Assembly (NCBI RefSeq): GCF_000092845.1
Contig: NC_014150.1
Location: 2,417,510 to 2,481,509, forward strand
Source: Brachyspira murdochii DSM 12563
GTDB lineage: Bacteria; Spirochaetota; Brachyspiria; Brachyspirales; Brachyspiraceae
Length of the DNA stretch: 64,000 nt
Direction of reading: 5' to 3'
Positions 19,198 to 53,505 of the stretch are shown here, piece after piece. Below the pieces are notes generated by a model. It was not told the DNA's origin. It searched no databases and saw nothing but the letters and a program-made list of their open reading frames with translations. The position numbers were made by a program, and so were the translations under genes. Each line of letters begins with the position of its first letter. Position 1 is the first letter of the stretch.

Positions 19198-20055
19198 ATG
19201 AGCAGAAGAGATATTAATGTTTTAAATGATTATTTTGTGAGGTATTTATTTTCATCACCAGACAGTAATCCTATACTGCTTGATTTTATCAATTCAATAA
19301 TGCTTGACTCTAACATGAAAACTTTTAGATCAGTAGAGATACTTACTCCATTTAATTATAAAGAAAATTATGAAGATAAGGAAACAATAGCAGATGTAAA
19401 GTGTATAACTCAAAATGGTACTGTTGTTATAATAGAGATTCAGCTTCAAGGCAATTCAAGATTTCCAGAACGCATATTATATTATTGGGCTTCTAATTAT
19501 AGCAAATTATTAAAACACGGAGAAAAGTATGATGCTTTAACTCCAGTAATTAGTATAAATTTACTCAATTTTAATTTAGATGATTCAAATAATATTCATT
19601 CATGCTATATGATTTATGATACCAATAATAAAAGATTACTCACTGATCATTTGCAAATTCATATAATTGAACTCAAAAAATTTAAATATAATTTATTACA
19701 ATCAGATTTAAACTGTTGGCTTAAATTTTTTACAATGAAAGAAAAAGATAATAAGGAGGTTATTATGTCAGAATTAGTAAAAGAAAAAACTATAATGGAA
19801 GAAGTACAAAAAAGATACAATAACTTTGTTAAAGACAGACTGATGATGAACGAATATGATAAAAGACAGGCATATTTATATGGTAATCAAATAATGCTTG
19901 AAGAAGAAAGAAGATTAGGAATAGAAGAAGGTATAGAACAAGGTAAAAGGCAGCAGCAAATATCTATAGCTAAAAACTTCAAAAATGCAGGAATAGATAT
20001 AAAAATTATAAGTGAAAATACAGGATTAAGTATAGAAGAAATAAAAAATTTGTGA
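19198..20055 (+). CDS. Rpn/PD-(D/E)XK nuclease family transposase-like protein
   Basis: 285 aa from ATG 19198; an in-frame TTG 15 nt earlier is inside the -10 box and is rejected. The N-terminus (DINVLNDYFVRYLFSS.., NPILLDFINSIM) and TIADVKCITQNGTVVIIEIQLQ give the D...ExQ catalytic pattern of the PDDEXK_2 / RpnA-like family (recombination-promoting nucleases, often annotated as transposases). The C-terminal ~70 residues form a charged coiled coil with the EEGIEQGKRQQQISIAKN repeat-like tail usual in the family. Its last codons and stop are part of the first unit of the tandem array that follows. Confidence 0.88.
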   Translation: MSRRDINVLNDYFVRYLFSSPDSNPILLDFINSIMLDSNMKTFRSVEILTPFNYKENYEDKETIADVKCITQNGTVVIIEIQLQGNSRFPERILYYWASNYSKLLKHGEKYDALTPVISINLLNFNLDDSNNIHSCYMIYDTNNKRLLTDHLQIHIIELKKFKYNLLQSDLNCWLKFFTMKEKDNKEVIMSELVKEKTIMEEVQKRYNNFVKDRLMMNEYDKRQAYLYGNQIMLEEERRLGIEEGIEQGKRQQQISIAKNFKNAGIDIKIISENTGLSIEEIKNL

Positions 20056-20597
20056 ACATCTGGCAAGTTTACTTGTCAGATACTGTTAGTGAATAAATTT
20101 TTTATATATAAATAAAGAAATAAAAAATTTGTGAACATCTGGCAAGTTTACTTGTCAGATACTGTTAGTGAATAAATTTTTTATATATAAATAAAGAAAT
20201 AAAAAATTTGTGAACATCTGGCAAGTTTACTTGTCAGATACTTTTAGTGAACAAATTTTTTATATATAAATAAAGAAATAAAAAATTTGTGAACATCTGG
20301 CAAGTTTACTTGTCAGATACTGTTAGTGAACAAATTTTTTATATATAAATAAAGAAATAAAAAATTTGTGAACATCTGGCAAGTTTACTTGTCAGATACT
20401 GTTAGTGAATAAATTTTTTATATATAAATAAAGAAATAAAAAATTTGTGAACATCTGGCAAGTTTACTTGTCAGATACTTTTAGTGAACAAATTTTTTAT
20501 ATATAAAATAAAGAAATAAAAAATTTGTGAACATCTGGCAAGCTTACTTGTCAGATACTTTTAGTGAACAAATTTTTTATATATAAATAAAGAAATA
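20034..20597. repeat. Seven tandem 79-bp hairpin units
   Basis: GTGAACATCTGG recurs at 20052, 20131, 20210, 20289, 20368, 20447 and 20527: period 79, last step 80 by one extra A. Each unit contains TCTGGCAAG-TTTA-CTTGTCAGA (9-bp stem with one G-U), AACA/TGTT outside it in copies 1, 2, 4 and 5, and outermost AAAAAATTTGT against ACAAATTTTTT in copies 3, 4, 6 and 7. The T-run makes each unit look like an intrinsic terminator. Every unit also repeats the codons for the Rpn tail (EIKNL, stop). Variants alternate at two positions (TGTT or TTTT, GAATAAA or GAACAAA); copy 7 has a loop change. No further gene before 20691. Confidence 0.95.
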
Positions 20598-20631
20598 GAA
20601 AAACGATAATAAATATAGATCTGAATTTATT

Positions 20632-48521: not shown

Positions 48522-48549
48522 TTGATTTTTATTTGTTATGCTATATAAT
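48522..48549 (+). promoter_or_regulatory. Promoter upstream of the ACCAA repeat and algI copy 1
   Basis: TTGATT (48522-48527), 16 bp, TATAAT (48544-48549). Transcription would start near 48556, two bases before an ATG that opens a short ORF through the repeat. Confidence 0.55.
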
Positions 48550-48557
48550 GCTTTTCC

Positions 48558-48638
48558 ATGATGAGTATTTGTTTATTTAAACCAAACCAAACCAAACCAA
48601 ACCAAACCAAACCAAACCAAACCAAACCAAACCAATAG
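48558..48638 (+). CDS. Upstream ORF made of the pentanucleotide repeat
   Basis: 26 codons: MMSICLF, then KPNQT repeated through the ACCAA tract, ending at TAG 48636-48638. It begins almost at the predicted transcription start, so it would be leaderless. With 11 units it ends 38 nt before algI. With 10 units it would stop at 48641-48643; with 9 or 12 it would run on over the algI SD and start to TAA 48685-48687. Likely regulatory if translated at all. Confidence 0.4.
   Translation: MMSICLFKPNQTKPNQTKPNQTKPNQ
48581..48635. repeat. Pentanucleotide microsatellite (ACCAA) x 11
   Basis: Eleven uninterrupted ACCAA units in the 5' untranslated region between promoter and SD of algI copy 1. Uninterrupted tracts of this kind change length by slippage. 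Confidence 0.97.
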
Positions 48639-48676
48639 AATAGAATACCTTCGCATTTTTTTCTGGGAGTTAAATA

Positions 48677-50152
48677 ATGTTATTTAATTCCACAGAGTTT
48701 ATGATATTTTTTCCTATAACATTAATATTGTATTGGATATTTCCAAAGAAATACAGATATATTTGTTTATTCATAGCAAGCTATACATTTTATATGTTTT
48801 GGAATCCTAAATATGCTCTGCTTATGGGTACTTCTACTGTTGTAACTTTTTTAAGCGGTGTATTAATAGAAAAACTAGAATATAAAAGAACTGTTGTAGC
48901 ATTTAGTTTTATTATCAATTTAGCAATTCTAATATTCTTCAAATATTTTGATTTTCTGCTTCAGAATATAAATATAGTTTTGTCAGCACTAAATATTCAG
49001 TTAATAAATAAGCCTTTTGATGTAATACTCCCAGTGGGAATATCTTTTTATACATTTCAGGCATTAAGCTACACAATAGATGTTTACAGAGGTGAAATAA
49101 AGTCTGAGAAAAATATTATTAAGTATGCATTATTTGTATCGTTCTTTCCGCAATTGGTGGCTGGTCCTATAGAGCGTTCTAAAAATTTGCTTATTCAAAT
49201 AGAGAATTTAGAAAAAGTAAAGCGATTTGATTATGATAGAATAACAGAAGGATTTACTTTAATGCTTTTTGGTTATTTTCAGAAGATGGTAATAGCGGAC
49301 AGAGCAGCAATATTAGTAGATACTGTTTTTAATGGATACTATGAATACAACAGTATGGCTTTGATTTTATCAGCAGTATTTTTTGCCGTACAGATATACT
49401 GCGACTTTGGAAGCTACTCACTTATAGCAATAGGTACAGCTAAAGTTATGGGTATTAATTTGATGGAGAATTTCAATACCCCGTATTTTTCTAGAAGCGT
49501 AAAAGAATTTTGGGGAAGATGGCATATATCATTATCCACTTGGTTTAGAGATTATCTTTATATTCCATTAGGCGGAAACAGATGCTCAAACATAAGAAAA
49601 AGTTTTAATATATTAGTAACATTTTTAGTAAGCGGACTTTGGCATGGAGCTAATTTTACCTTCATAGCTTGGGGTGCTATTCATGGAATATTTCACATAA
49701 TAGAAGAACAATTAAAACCTATCAAAGAAAAATATTTAAATAAATTCAAAATAAAAACAAATGCTTTTAGTTTTGCCCTCATAGAAATAATAATTACTTT
49801 CATAATAGTAGATTTAGCTTGGATATTTTTCAGGGCAGAGACTATACATGATGCCATTCATTATATACAGCGAATATTTACAAGAATAGATTTGTGGACA
49901 TTATTTGACGGTACTTTATATGGCTTAGGCTTAAACATATTTGAGATGAATATTTTAATCATAGCGTTATTTATACTTATATCTTTTGATTTAGTAAAGT
50001 ATATAAGAAAAGAGAGTATATTTGAATTCTTAAATAAACAGAATTTATATTTCAGATGGTTTGTGATGTTATTTTTGATTTTTTACATAATTGTTTACGG
50101 TAAATACGGAGCAGGATTTGACCCTAAGCAGTTTATATATTTTCAATTCTAA
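48677..50152 (+). CDS. AlgI-like MBOAT O-acyltransferase, copy 1
   Basis: 491 aa, polytopic (about ten helices). MBOAT signatures: VGISFYTFQALSYTIDVYRGE, FVSFFPQLVAGPIERS, EFWGRWHISLSTWFRDYLYIPLGGNR and the invariant His in SGLWHGANFTF. AlgI/PatA-type proteins carry acetyl groups across the inner membrane for transfer to a surface polysaccharide or glycan. The next gene, 14 nt on, encodes the SGNH partner. GGGAG precedes the ATG. Nearly colinear with the copy at 53519. Confidence 0.93.
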   Translation: MLFNSTEFMIFFPITLILYWIFPKKYRYICLFIASYTFYMFWNPKYALLMGTSTVVTFLSGVLIEKLEYKRTVVAFSFIINLAILIFFKYFDFLLQNINIVLSALNIQLINKPFDVILPVGISFYTFQALSYTIDVYRGEIKSEKNIIKYALFVSFFPQLVAGPIERSKNLLIQIENLEKVKRFDYDRITEGFTLMLFGYFQKMVIADRAAILVDTVFNGYYEYNSMALILSAVFFAVQIYCDFGSYSLIAIGTAKVMGINLMENFNTPYFSRSVKEFWGRWHISLSTWFRDYLYIPLGGNRCSNIRKSFNILVTFLVSGLWHGANFTFIAWGAIHGIFHIIEEQLKPIKEKYLNKFKIKTNAFSFALIEIIITFIIVDLAWIFFRAETIHDAIHYIQRIFTRIDLWTLFDGTLYGLGLNIFEMNILIIALFILISFDLVKYIRKESIFEFLNKQNLYFRWFVMLFLIFYIIVYGKYGAGFDPKQFIYFQF

Positions 50153-50166
50153 TATGAGAGTTATTT

Positions 50167-51591
50167 ATGAAAATAAAAGCTATAAAGATAATTTGTTTTG
50201 TATTAATATTTTGCGTATTGCTTCATTCTGTAAGCAGAGTATTAAGATTTAAATATAATGATGGTATTCATCAATTAGATTCTTTTTATAAATTAGAAAA
50301 TAATTCTATAGATGTTTTATTATTAGGCAGCAGTCACTCTTTTATGAATATTAATTCTTTTTATTTATATAAATTATATGGCATATCTTCATTTAATTTA
50401 GCAGGCAGTATTCAGCCTTTGTGGAATACATATTTTTATTTAAAAGAAACTTTAAATACTCAAGAACCTAAATTAATAGTTTTAGAGGCTTATTTAACTT
50501 TAGCAAATTATGATTATATAGATGATTCTAGAATTATAAAAAATAATTATGGACTTAAATGTTCTATTGATAAAATAAATAGCATAATGGTAAGTTCTCC
50601 TAAAAATAGATGGTATGAATTTCTTAATCCTTTTTACCAATATCATAATAGATATTCCTCACTTACTTTTGAAGACTTTCTTAATTATAAAGGTAAAGAA
50701 AAATATAAATATGATAAAGGTTGTGTAATTTCATATAGTGTTTATAGTAATATGAAGCCTAAAGTTATTTATATTACTAATGAAATAGCTTTATATCCGA
50801 AGGTAGATAAATATTATAGAATGATAATAGAGTTGGCAAAAAATAATAATATACCTATTTTAATTGTGAAAGCACCATATTCTATTTATAATGAAAATGA
50901 TCAAAAAAAGTATAATGTGGCAGAAAGGATAGCCAAAGAATATAATATTCCTTTTATTAATTTTAATTTGTATTATGATGATTATAATTTAGATTTTTCT
51001 AAAGATTTTGCTGATATTGTTCATTTAAATTATTTAGGGGCTGAAAAAGTTGCAAAATATTTGGGAAAGTATTTAAAAGATAATTATGATTTGCCAGATA
51101 GAAGAGGCGACCATAAATATTATTCTTGGGAAATGAATGCTAAATATCAGGATAAAGAGATTTATAATTTTGAATTAAAGCAATCAGCAAATTTAAATGA
51201 GTATTTAGAAAAAGTAAAAAATTCTGATGACTATGTTATAGGTATTACTATGCTTGGTAATTATCAAAATAATGATGCTGTAGTTCAAATTATATCAAAA
51301 AATTTTAATATTAATAATATATACTTACAAAATGCTTCTTATGTTATAGACAATAATAAAGTTATATACTCTTCGGAAGGCTCTAATCAGTATCTATTTC
51401 ATAAAGAGATGGGAAGTTATACCGATTTGGTTGTTCAAAATGGGCAAAAATTATCTATTAATAGAGTAAATTATATTAAAACTCAAAATGGTATAAACAT
51501 GGTAATTTATGATAAGTTCACAGAAGAGATAGTTGATAATATATATTTGGAATATATAGATACTGCTATTGATAGCACAATTAAAAGATAG
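50167..51591 (+). CDS. SGNH/GDSL-like (AlgJ/DltD-type) acyltransferase partner, copy 1
   Basis: 474 aa. One N-terminal membrane anchor (KAIKIICFVLIFCVLLHSVSRVL), then a periplasmic SGNH domain: LLLGSSHSFMNIN with the nucleophile Ser (S56) and DIVHLNYLGAEKVA with the Asp-x-x-His pair. The C-terminal ~130 residues are a separate beta-rich part. It probably receives the acyl group from the MBOAT protein and puts it on a glycan. The glycan is unknown. Confidence 0.85.
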   Translation: MKIKAIKIICFVLIFCVLLHSVSRVLRFKYNDGIHQLDSFYKLENNSIDVLLLGSSHSFMNINSFYLYKLYGISSFNLAGSIQPLWNTYFYLKETLNTQEPKLIVLEAYLTLANYDYIDDSRIIKNNYGLKCSIDKINSIMVSSPKNRWYEFLNPFYQYHNRYSSLTFEDFLNYKGKEKYKYDKGCVISYSVYSNMKPKVIYITNEIALYPKVDKYYRMIIELAKNNNIPILIVKAPYSIYNENDQKKYNVAERIAKEYNIPFINFNLYYDDYNLDFSKDFADIVHLNYLGAEKVAKYLGKYLKDNYDLPDRRGDHKYYSWEMNAKYQDKEIYNFELKQSANLNEYLEKVKNSDDYVIGITMLGNYQNNDAVVQIISKNFNINNIYLQNASYVIDNNKVIYSSEGSNQYLFHKEMGSYTDLVVQNGQKLSINRVNYIKTQNGINMVIYDKFTEEIVDNIYLEYIDTAIDSTIKR

Positions 51592-51683: not shown

Positions 51684-53369
51684 TTAATAGAATCTAAACT
51701 CAATAGTATAATAAGCGATAGCATCATCAGGCATTGAATAATCAGGATTTAACATCATCATACTAAGCATGTCTGCCTGAGCTTTACAGTACATAGCATT
51801 ATAATAATCTCCAATTGAATAATAATTTCTGTATTCATACATTAATTCATCAACAGCACCTTGCTGAAGTGTTGTTCTTGCTCTAATATTTGAGTAGTCT
51901 ACTAATTGTATTATTTTTCCGTTTGCATTAAAAAGCATATCATCTTTTCCAAACTGCCAAACCATAGAGTTTTCATCATAATTTACAGGTGTTAATAATG
52001 TCCAATCCTCTTCTTTTGCAGTATCAGGATTTTTATCAGTAACCATAAATATATTTTTTCCAGCATTTTTTATATGTTCTGGTTTTATAGTAAATGTTCT
52101 TTCTCCTCTATCAAATGCCTCTTTTATTTCATTTACAGGAGGTATTGGTATATAATATTTAACCATAGTAGAATCTATTATGTAATCATTATAAGTTTTA
52201 TAGTAAACATTGTTATCAGATTTAACCCATTTAGGAGGTGTAGGCGTTTTTTCTCTTTTTTTTACAAGTCCAAAATCTCCGTAAAAATCAGTTGATGTAA
52301 AGTCTTTTTTTTCAAATTCAGATTTATCTATAGTATACCAGTCTCTAAAATTCTTAGTAACCCAAGTATATGGAATAGAAGAATATTTTTCAACCCAAGA
52401 ACTATTTTCTTGTTTTAAAGTAACCTGACTTCCATTTCCCAAAAAAAATTCACCGCTTTTATTTGTTCTTAACTGCAATTTTGAATAATATCCCCAAGGA
52501 GTTTCTCCTAAATCTTCCCAATTATTAGCATCAGACATATCTTTTGATCTATGTATTCTATAGTATTTATTTTTACTTAAATAATAATCCGGCTGATTAA
52601 AATATCTAATACCTTCTGGATTTTCTTCGTAAAACATCTCTTCAAGCCCATATACATATATATAATCGTCTACAAGTGCCATTTGAGCTTCGCTTACCCC
52701 AAATCTTCCCTGCCAGCTTTTTGGTTTGCTTGCGTCTAATTGTGTAGGTTTTGGTAAATACATATATACATTATCAGATCTTCCATATTTAGCCCAAGTG
52801 AGTATGTCTGTGCTTCTATAGTATAAATCTGTATATATTACTTTATTATAATAATATATTTGTACATCTTTATTTAAATAATTATCTTTATACTGATAGC
52901 TTGATTTTGAAAGAGAATAGTCCCCATAGTTATAAGGTTCATATATTATTTCATTATCATTTATAACATTTGCTAAATTTAAGTAACTCCATGCACTTTC
53001 AGCATTATTACCTAAATTTTCTGCTACTATTTTTATTTCAGCATTTTCAGTTATTTCAAGTATTAATGTAGTAGAATTAATTTTTAAACTCTTATTTACA
53101 GTATCATATTTATATGAATGTTCAGCTAGTACATACCATTTTCCTCTGAAAAAAAACTTCTTTCTAAATCCTCCAAATACTAAAGTATCTGAATATTTAT
53201 TTTCTTCTATGGATATTTCTATTGGTTTTAATTTGTCTGGTATTCTAAAATCAGTTGGCGGAGGAATAGTATTTGGAGATAGTATATTTATTTTTTTGCA
53301 TGAAATAGCAAATAAAAAAATAGATAAAACAATTACAAGAGATTGTAAGTATATTTTTTTATTTTTCAT
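51684..53369 (-). CDS. Large lipoprotein of unknown function
   Basis: 561 aa from ATG 53369; a second ATG 12 nt upstream is equally possible. Signal MKNKKIYLQSLVIVLSIFLF with lipobox AISC. The body has repeated aromatic Trp/Tyr-containing strands (KRKFFFRGKWYVLAEHSYKYD-like, FFLGNGSQVTLKQENSSWVEKYSS, RDWYTIDKSEFEK), suggestive of a beta-propeller or sialidase-like fold, not proven. Lies opposite to and between the two O-acylation cassettes. The surface role is unknown. Confidence 0.65.
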   Translation of the reverse strand: MKNKKIYLQSLVIVLSIFLFAISCKKINILSPNTIPPPTDFRIPDKLKPIEISIEENKYSDTLVFGGFRKKFFFRGKWYVLAEHSYKYDTVNKSLKINSTTLILEITENAEIKIVAENLGNNAESAWSYLNLANVINDNEIIYEPYNYGDYSLSKSSYQYKDNYLNKDVQIYYYNKVIYTDLYYRSTDILTWAKYGRSDNVYMYLPKPTQLDASKPKSWQGRFGVSEAQMALVDDYIYVYGLEEMFYEENPEGIRYFNQPDYYLSKNKYYRIHRSKDMSDANNWEDLGETPWGYYSKLQLRTNKSGEFFLGNGSQVTLKQENSSWVEKYSSIPYTWVTKNFRDWYTIDKSEFEKKDFTSTDFYGDFGLVKKREKTPTPPKWVKSDNNVYYKTYNDYIIDSTMVKYYIPIPPVNEIKEAFDRGERTFTIKPEHIKNAGKNIFMVTDKNPDTAKEEDWTLLTPVNYDENSMVWQFGKDDMLFNANGKIIQLVDYSNIRARTTLQQGAVDELMYEYRNYYSIGDYYNAMYCKAQADMLSMMMLNPDYSMPDDAIAYYTIEFRFY

Positions 53370-53505
53370 AATACATTTCATATATGCATATTATAAATTA
53401 TAAAAATAAATAATCAAATAAAATTTTATGATAAAAAATATTATAAATTATATATTACTATTAACTATTTTTTATAGTTATAATTGTATAATTTAGTATA
53501 TTATT

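Follow-up and report, generated by a model that had tools for sequence, protein, structure and literature searches.

What might a pentanucleotide microsatellite located between a promoter and a gene contribute to the expression of that gene? The question is raised by algI copy 1 of the type strain of Brachyspira murdochii (DSM 12563), which lies in the 64,000-nucleotide stretch of DNA (here called the window) that was analyzed from this genome, a single contig of 3,241,804 bp. Eleven ACCAA units precede the gene (positions 48581 to 48635, plus strand), all of them perfect (100% match), and TRF calls a 57-bp array of AAACC x11.4 at 48579-48635. The tract is open in all three reading frames (repeats of TKPNQ) and is followed by a short second repeat, (TAGAA)2 (48636 to 48645, plus strand), which places TAG stops in two frames and occurs in 1-3 copies among species. 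It is the sole ACCAA array in the genome, wherein no second array of three or more units is present across 3.24 Mb. Among the matches listed, ACCAA arrays are widespread in bacteria, and thus the unit itself is not special. An Rfam search gave no match. Elsewhere in the window, a tandem array of 79-bp units (20036-20603; 7.2 copies, 97% matches) carries an inverted repeat in each unit and lies in the 3'-terminal part of an ORF.

Based on the sequence and on folding models, we consider it likely that the algI locus functions as a phase-variable translational ON/OFF switch, wherein slippage sets the frame of a leader ORF and ribosomes translating that leader open a hairpin covering the ribosome binding site (RBS). 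The direct basis for this reading is the tract, the ORF frames, the predicted hairpin, the co-occurrence of these features across species, and the tract lengths that differ between species. From these we infer leader translation, formation of the hairpin in the cell, slippage within a strain, and an effect on AlgI.

The gene itself (48677 to 50152, plus strand) is algI/dltB-like and codes for an MBOAT protein of 491 aa (PF03062, E=2.9e-26, 93 bits), whose match to the LTA_dltB model lies far below the cutoff for a DltB equivalog. A preliminary description of the locus had called the product a surface O-acylation enzyme; the family assignment stands, and surface O-acylation is a plausible role. 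The downstream partner gene (50167 to 51591, plus strand) possibly codes for an SGNH/GDSL protein, for which the match is weak (PF13472, E=7.6e-4, under the gathering score).

The top plus-strand promoter match in the 2 kb scanned is located upstream of the tract (48522 to 48549). It has a -35 element TTGATT (48522-48527), a 16-nt spacer, and a -10 element TATAAT (48544-48549), and scores 10/12 in the consensus scan, which overall found 23 sites versus 18.4 expected. The TATAAT is retained in all seven orthologues with upstream sequence. A leader ORF (48558 to 48638, plus strand) begins with an ATG 8 nt 3' of the -10 element, spans the whole tract, and at 11 units codes for a 26-aa product, MMSICLFKPNQ(TKPNQ)3*. 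In all seven species with this region, the ATG is found at a gap of 8 or 11 nt from the -10 element; by chance, 12% of TATAATs have an ATG within 5-11 nt. From the position of the -10 element, we infer that transcription starts just before the leader ATG (48558), and the ORF is predicted to be leaderless or nearly so.

The number of units determines where this leader ends. The stop is at 48638 (-38 relative to algI) with 11 units, at 48643 (-33) with 10 units, and at 48687 (+11) with 9 or 12 units. The stop codon used in this third frame (48685 to 48687, plus strand, for 9, 12, 15 and so on) is within algI, at +9 to +11, and the corresponding stops in relatives fall at -3, +1 (a UAAUG overlap) or +11. 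The 11 units between promoter and algI Shine-Dalgarno (SD) sequence, the ATG near the predicted transcription start that reads through the tract, and each of these stops had been proposed in the preliminary description and prove exact to the base.

What that description overlooked is a predicted hairpin at the algI start (48662 to 48696, plus strand), which strengthens its suggestion that slippage decides whether the leader covers the start of the gene. The 5' arm (48662-48676) contains the SD sequence, the AUGU loop (48677-48680) contains the start codon, and the 3' arm (48681-48696) is formed by codons 2-7. Folding predicts a stem of 15 bp with a stability of -14.8 kcal/mol, in which the GGGAG of the SD (48665 to 48669, plus strand) is fully paired, and thus both SD and start are predicted to be sequestered in a stable local structure. 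Among 1,031 start sites, the background being SD-preceded genes in about 64% of the genome, this hairpin ranks first in stability, with the first percentile at -7.2. Unless ribosomes open a structure of such stability, hardly any initiation would be expected. When a looser fold of -30..+45 is used, algI is merely in the lowest 1.3%, which counts against the switch.

Two leader frames terminate 18-23 nt upstream of the hairpin, and the third frame crosses it. In the proposed mechanism, transcription would begin just upstream of the short leader ORF containing the slippage-prone tract, and the hairpin would lock the RBS and start codon of algI. The leading edge of a ribosome that stops at -38 or -33 would reach about -28 or -23, and the base of the hairpin is at -15; ribosomes in these frames would release 18-23 nt short of the structure and leave algI off. 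Ribosomes in the third frame would enter and melt the hairpin and stop a few nucleotides from the freed AUG, such that algI could be translated by coupling or re-initiation. An upstream stop near the downstream start is found in this third frame only, at +11 here. The gain or loss of a single unit would flip the state in a heritable and reversible manner. The preliminary description had proposed variation among three states. We find two functional states likelier, with ON at about one third of lengths, because the leader ends short of the hairpin in either of two frames. By this rule, the type strain is predicted to be OFF at 11 units, and B. murdochii algI copy 1 to be ON at 9, 12 or 15 units.

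The same geometry could be read in the opposite sense, with an SD that is accessible in the cell and third-frame ribosomes that occlude the algI start, in which case algI would be OFF in the third frame and ON in the remaining two. The SD, GGGAG, is strong and well spaced, and an overlap of up to +11 could produce collisions. However, the SD is predicted to be completely paired in the -14.8 kcal/mol structure, and the leader in one relative (G023, 16 units) ends in a UAAUG overlap typical of coupling. We therefore regard interference as improbable.

Comparison across the genus links the tract to the hairpin. ACCAA arrays of at least four units are present in nine of the 25 Brachyspira genomes first searched and in none of 16 genomes outside the genus, and in eight of the nine the array is placed before the copy-1 algI orthologue. 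These eight tracts have 11, 12, 10, at least 5 (a lower bound, since the tract is at a contig edge), 18, 14, 8 and 16 units. Every species, represented by one genome each, has a different length, the units are perfect throughout, and the DNA flanking the tract is 87-94% identical among orthologues while unit number varies. The 22 other algI genes examined, including copy 2 in the window, lack the tract. An RBS-masking hairpin accompanies the tract in all eight genes that carry it (-12.4 to -14.8 kcal/mol) and occurs in none of the 22 others (-0.4 to -3.7 kcal/mol). In a tree with six full-length members, the proteins of tract-bearing copy-1 genes form one clade with 100/100 support. One genome (G017) has two contigs (C83 and C89; L071, L072) that both carry an 18-unit tract and an algI start, reflecting either a local duplication or an assembly overlap.

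Applied to these lengths, the rule would assign OFF to B. murdochii (11 units), G022 (8), G017 (18), G003 (12) and G018 (14), and ON to G011 (10) and G023 (16), with copy 1 being interrupted in the assemblies of G003 and G023. In G023 (L073) the gene has frameshifts, and in G003 (L075; B. hampsonii 30446) it has a nonsense codon; for each, a pseudogene or an assembly error is possible. The broken algI copy 1 of two species counts against the switch and would suit a neutral microsatellite with no influence on algI, as would the fact that the functional role of the tract is a prediction. Nevertheless, we find neutrality hard to credit when the tract is retained in 8/8 orthologues, missing from the 22 other algI genes and linked to the hairpin, and when simple sequence repeats (SSRs) recur before surface and glycan genes.

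The algI leader ORF has no SD, which counts against the switch, and it would therefore need leaderless initiation. The spacing from ATG to tract varies among species (23, 20, 19, 14 and 13 nt), without constancy modulo 3. This also counts against the switch and led us to discard a conserved ATG-to-tract frame as support. Coding conservation of the tract is by itself no evidence, because all of its frames are open. Stop-free units were likewise set aside as proof of translation, given their weak enrichment over letter shuffles (27/28 versus 24.6, p=0.08). Finally, the spacer between tract and algI is only 41 nt, and the probability that one frame reaches the start by chance is 0.995, which makes an open-frame test uninformative for algI alone.

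These points leave some room for a non-coding role. Variable 5' UTR repeats for which graded expression is proposed include the AGAT repeat of Moraxella catarrhalis uspA2 and the G-repeat of H. pylori tlpB. Their repeats are located between promoter and start, as at algI, whereas their models do not involve the frame of a leader ORF. The tlpB example concerns RepG and a G-repeat in the 5' UTR (PMC8295292). At algI, repeat number might similarly alter leader length, RNA stability, or a protein or sRNA site to give graded expression, with the leader ORF being incidental. The lack of an SD fits this reading, as do a tract that is unpaired in the predicted leader RNA and open in all frames through its composition, and the marginal enrichment of stop-free units. 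However, the predicted SD structure is constant, with complete pairing throughout the range of 0 to 18 units, and the RBS hairpin, present only with the tract, requires an opener. Moreover, leader ORFs at sister loci (described below) have SDs and reach the next start beyond chance. A rheostat of this kind is thus unlikely in our assessment. A long-range stem (GUAUU/AAUAC) flanking the tract is seen in some species only.

The closest precedent for the favored switch is found at pil1 and pil3 of Streptococcus gallolyticus, where out-of-frame changes in GCAGA repeats within a leader peptide, located ahead of a surface operon, bring the leader stop closer to a terminator hairpin or beyond it; in the low state, the stop is 39 bp before the hairpin (PMC3894217). 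As at pil1, algI copy 1 has a pentanucleotide SSR in a short ORF between a promoter and its target gene, and a unit change moves the leader stop relative to a control hairpin (-38/-33 before it, +11 through 48662-48696). The two differ in that the pil1 hairpin is an intrinsic transcription terminator, whereas the algI hairpin encloses the SD and AUG and is not a terminator, and in that the algI leader ORF appears to be leaderless. The locus is therefore pil1-like yet not a member of that class, because the terminator feature is missing, and it looks like a translational version of the leader-peptide mechanism. A transcriptional version, in which frame-dependent ribosome cover sets premature termination (intrinsic or Rho) as at pil1, would draw on the terminators between tract and gene at two sister loci (L258:6986 and L301) and on a genome that encodes Rho. 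However, no intrinsic terminator was found between the tract and algI, and a gap of 41 nt is short for Rho, which makes such a mechanism very unlikely here.

The translational reading also shares features with other known systems. In ermC-type and ribosomal-protein coupling or attenuation, ribosomes on an upstream ORF open a hairpin-hidden RBS. The trigger in those systems is stalling or an operon partner, whereas at algI it would be the frame set by a microsatellite. Classical in-gene contingency loci, such as H. influenzae mod and lic, rely on tetra- or pentanucleotide slippage in surface or glycan genes that are ON in a fraction of frames. Unlike these, the algI tract is outside its target, and no frame fuses the leader with the gene, as the in-frame register hits TAG at -33. 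The preliminary description had set the tract apart from the usual ones; this holds for its place outside the target gene, but pil1/pil3 offer a precedent and the plan is common to many Brachyspira genes. Searches of open-access full text turned up neither a paper describing SSR-based phase variation in Brachyspira nor an SSR-driven switch that unmasks an RBS, and each of these results is weak as evidence of absence.

A survey of 2.06 Mb (about 64%) of the B. murdochii genome for units of 4-7 nt in at least five copies yielded 28 microsatellites, most of which lie either within a leader ORF or in the 3'-terminal part of the ORF upstream. The genes that follow code for glycosyltransferases, lipoproteins and similar products, and mostly have their own SD. 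A frame is open to within 25 nt of the next start or past it at 13 of 20 loci, versus 5.3 expected with shuffled spacers (0 of 100,000 simulations reached the observed count). An SD precedes 8/19 leader-ORF starts, compared with 4.5% for intergenic ATGs (p=9e-7). A TATAAT is located 5-11 nt upstream in 3/19, including algI, compared with 3.6% (p=0.03). The pil1 layout, with a terminator between tract and gene, occurs at L258:6986 and L301 and, by eye, at L288:11817 and three L244 tracts. Among the 14 terminator-less loci, four (L258:5827, L267, L288:19251 and algI) have start-site structure in the lowest 2.7%. As a group, however, the terminator-less loci do not fold above background (p=0.15), which counts against the switch, and the idea that RBS masking applies to all of them was rejected. 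Stretches from a second Brachyspira species (G013, 3.30 Mb) are organized likewise, and related GT2 and lipoprotein genes are among those concerned. In another species (G002), the ACCAA repeat recurs in a leader ORF whose stops fall at -48, -2 and +8 of the following gene, an unrelated one identified by eye as FkbM-like.

Individual loci add detail. At L258:6986-7019 (plus strand; G000 about 2,386,986), a leader ORF with an SD in front of it contains (ACAG)8.5, and a 16-bp hairpin terminator with a T-run and then a GT8-like gene follow; this is predicted to be a pil1-type attenuator whose ORF reaches +8 at the current length, and so to be ON. In L244:5564-13784 and L264:11499-14197 (G000 about 145,000-175,000), AGACC/AGAGC/AGAAC tracts are found at the 3' ends of successive glycan-cluster ORFs. 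Several of these tracts are followed by terminator-like repeats (ACCTATG...CATAGGT), and several of the ORFs end with a common AWWIP..K motif right before the tract. L252:11386-11549 carries (CGTTATC)12 and (TATC)21 adjacent in one leader ORF after TTGACA-17-TATAAT, with leader stops at -50, -36 or +26 relative to the next gene. GCCAA arrays (L247:4204-4297, 18.8 units; L315:16531-16611, 16.2 units) precede related lipoprotein genes in two species, which are paralogues of the lipoprotein found at 51684-53381 of the window; at L247, the leader ORF and the lipoprotein gene are fused in one frame. At L223:17855-17986, (AAACTCT)18.9 follows a perfect TTGACA-17-TATAAT promoter. This tract is outside the leader-ORF plan because its unit holds a sense stop codon, the sole such case sampled.

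Our judgment is evenly balanced on whether these loci make up a genus-wide contingency system, in which SSRs of varied unit, placed either inside short translated leader ORFs or in the 3'-terminal part of the preceding ORF, would control surface and glycan genes via frame-dependent entry of ribosomes into an RBS-masking hairpin (algI copy 1 and some others) or a terminator, with leaderless initiation at algI copy 1. If true, the surface glycans and lipoproteins of these gut spirochaetes would be subject to dozens of hypermutable switches, which standard screens for in-gene or promoter tracts would overlook. The pil1 leader-peptide mechanism would gain a translational version in which ON and OFF can be predicted from unit number, and the finding would bear on the choice of vaccine antigens and on strain typing.
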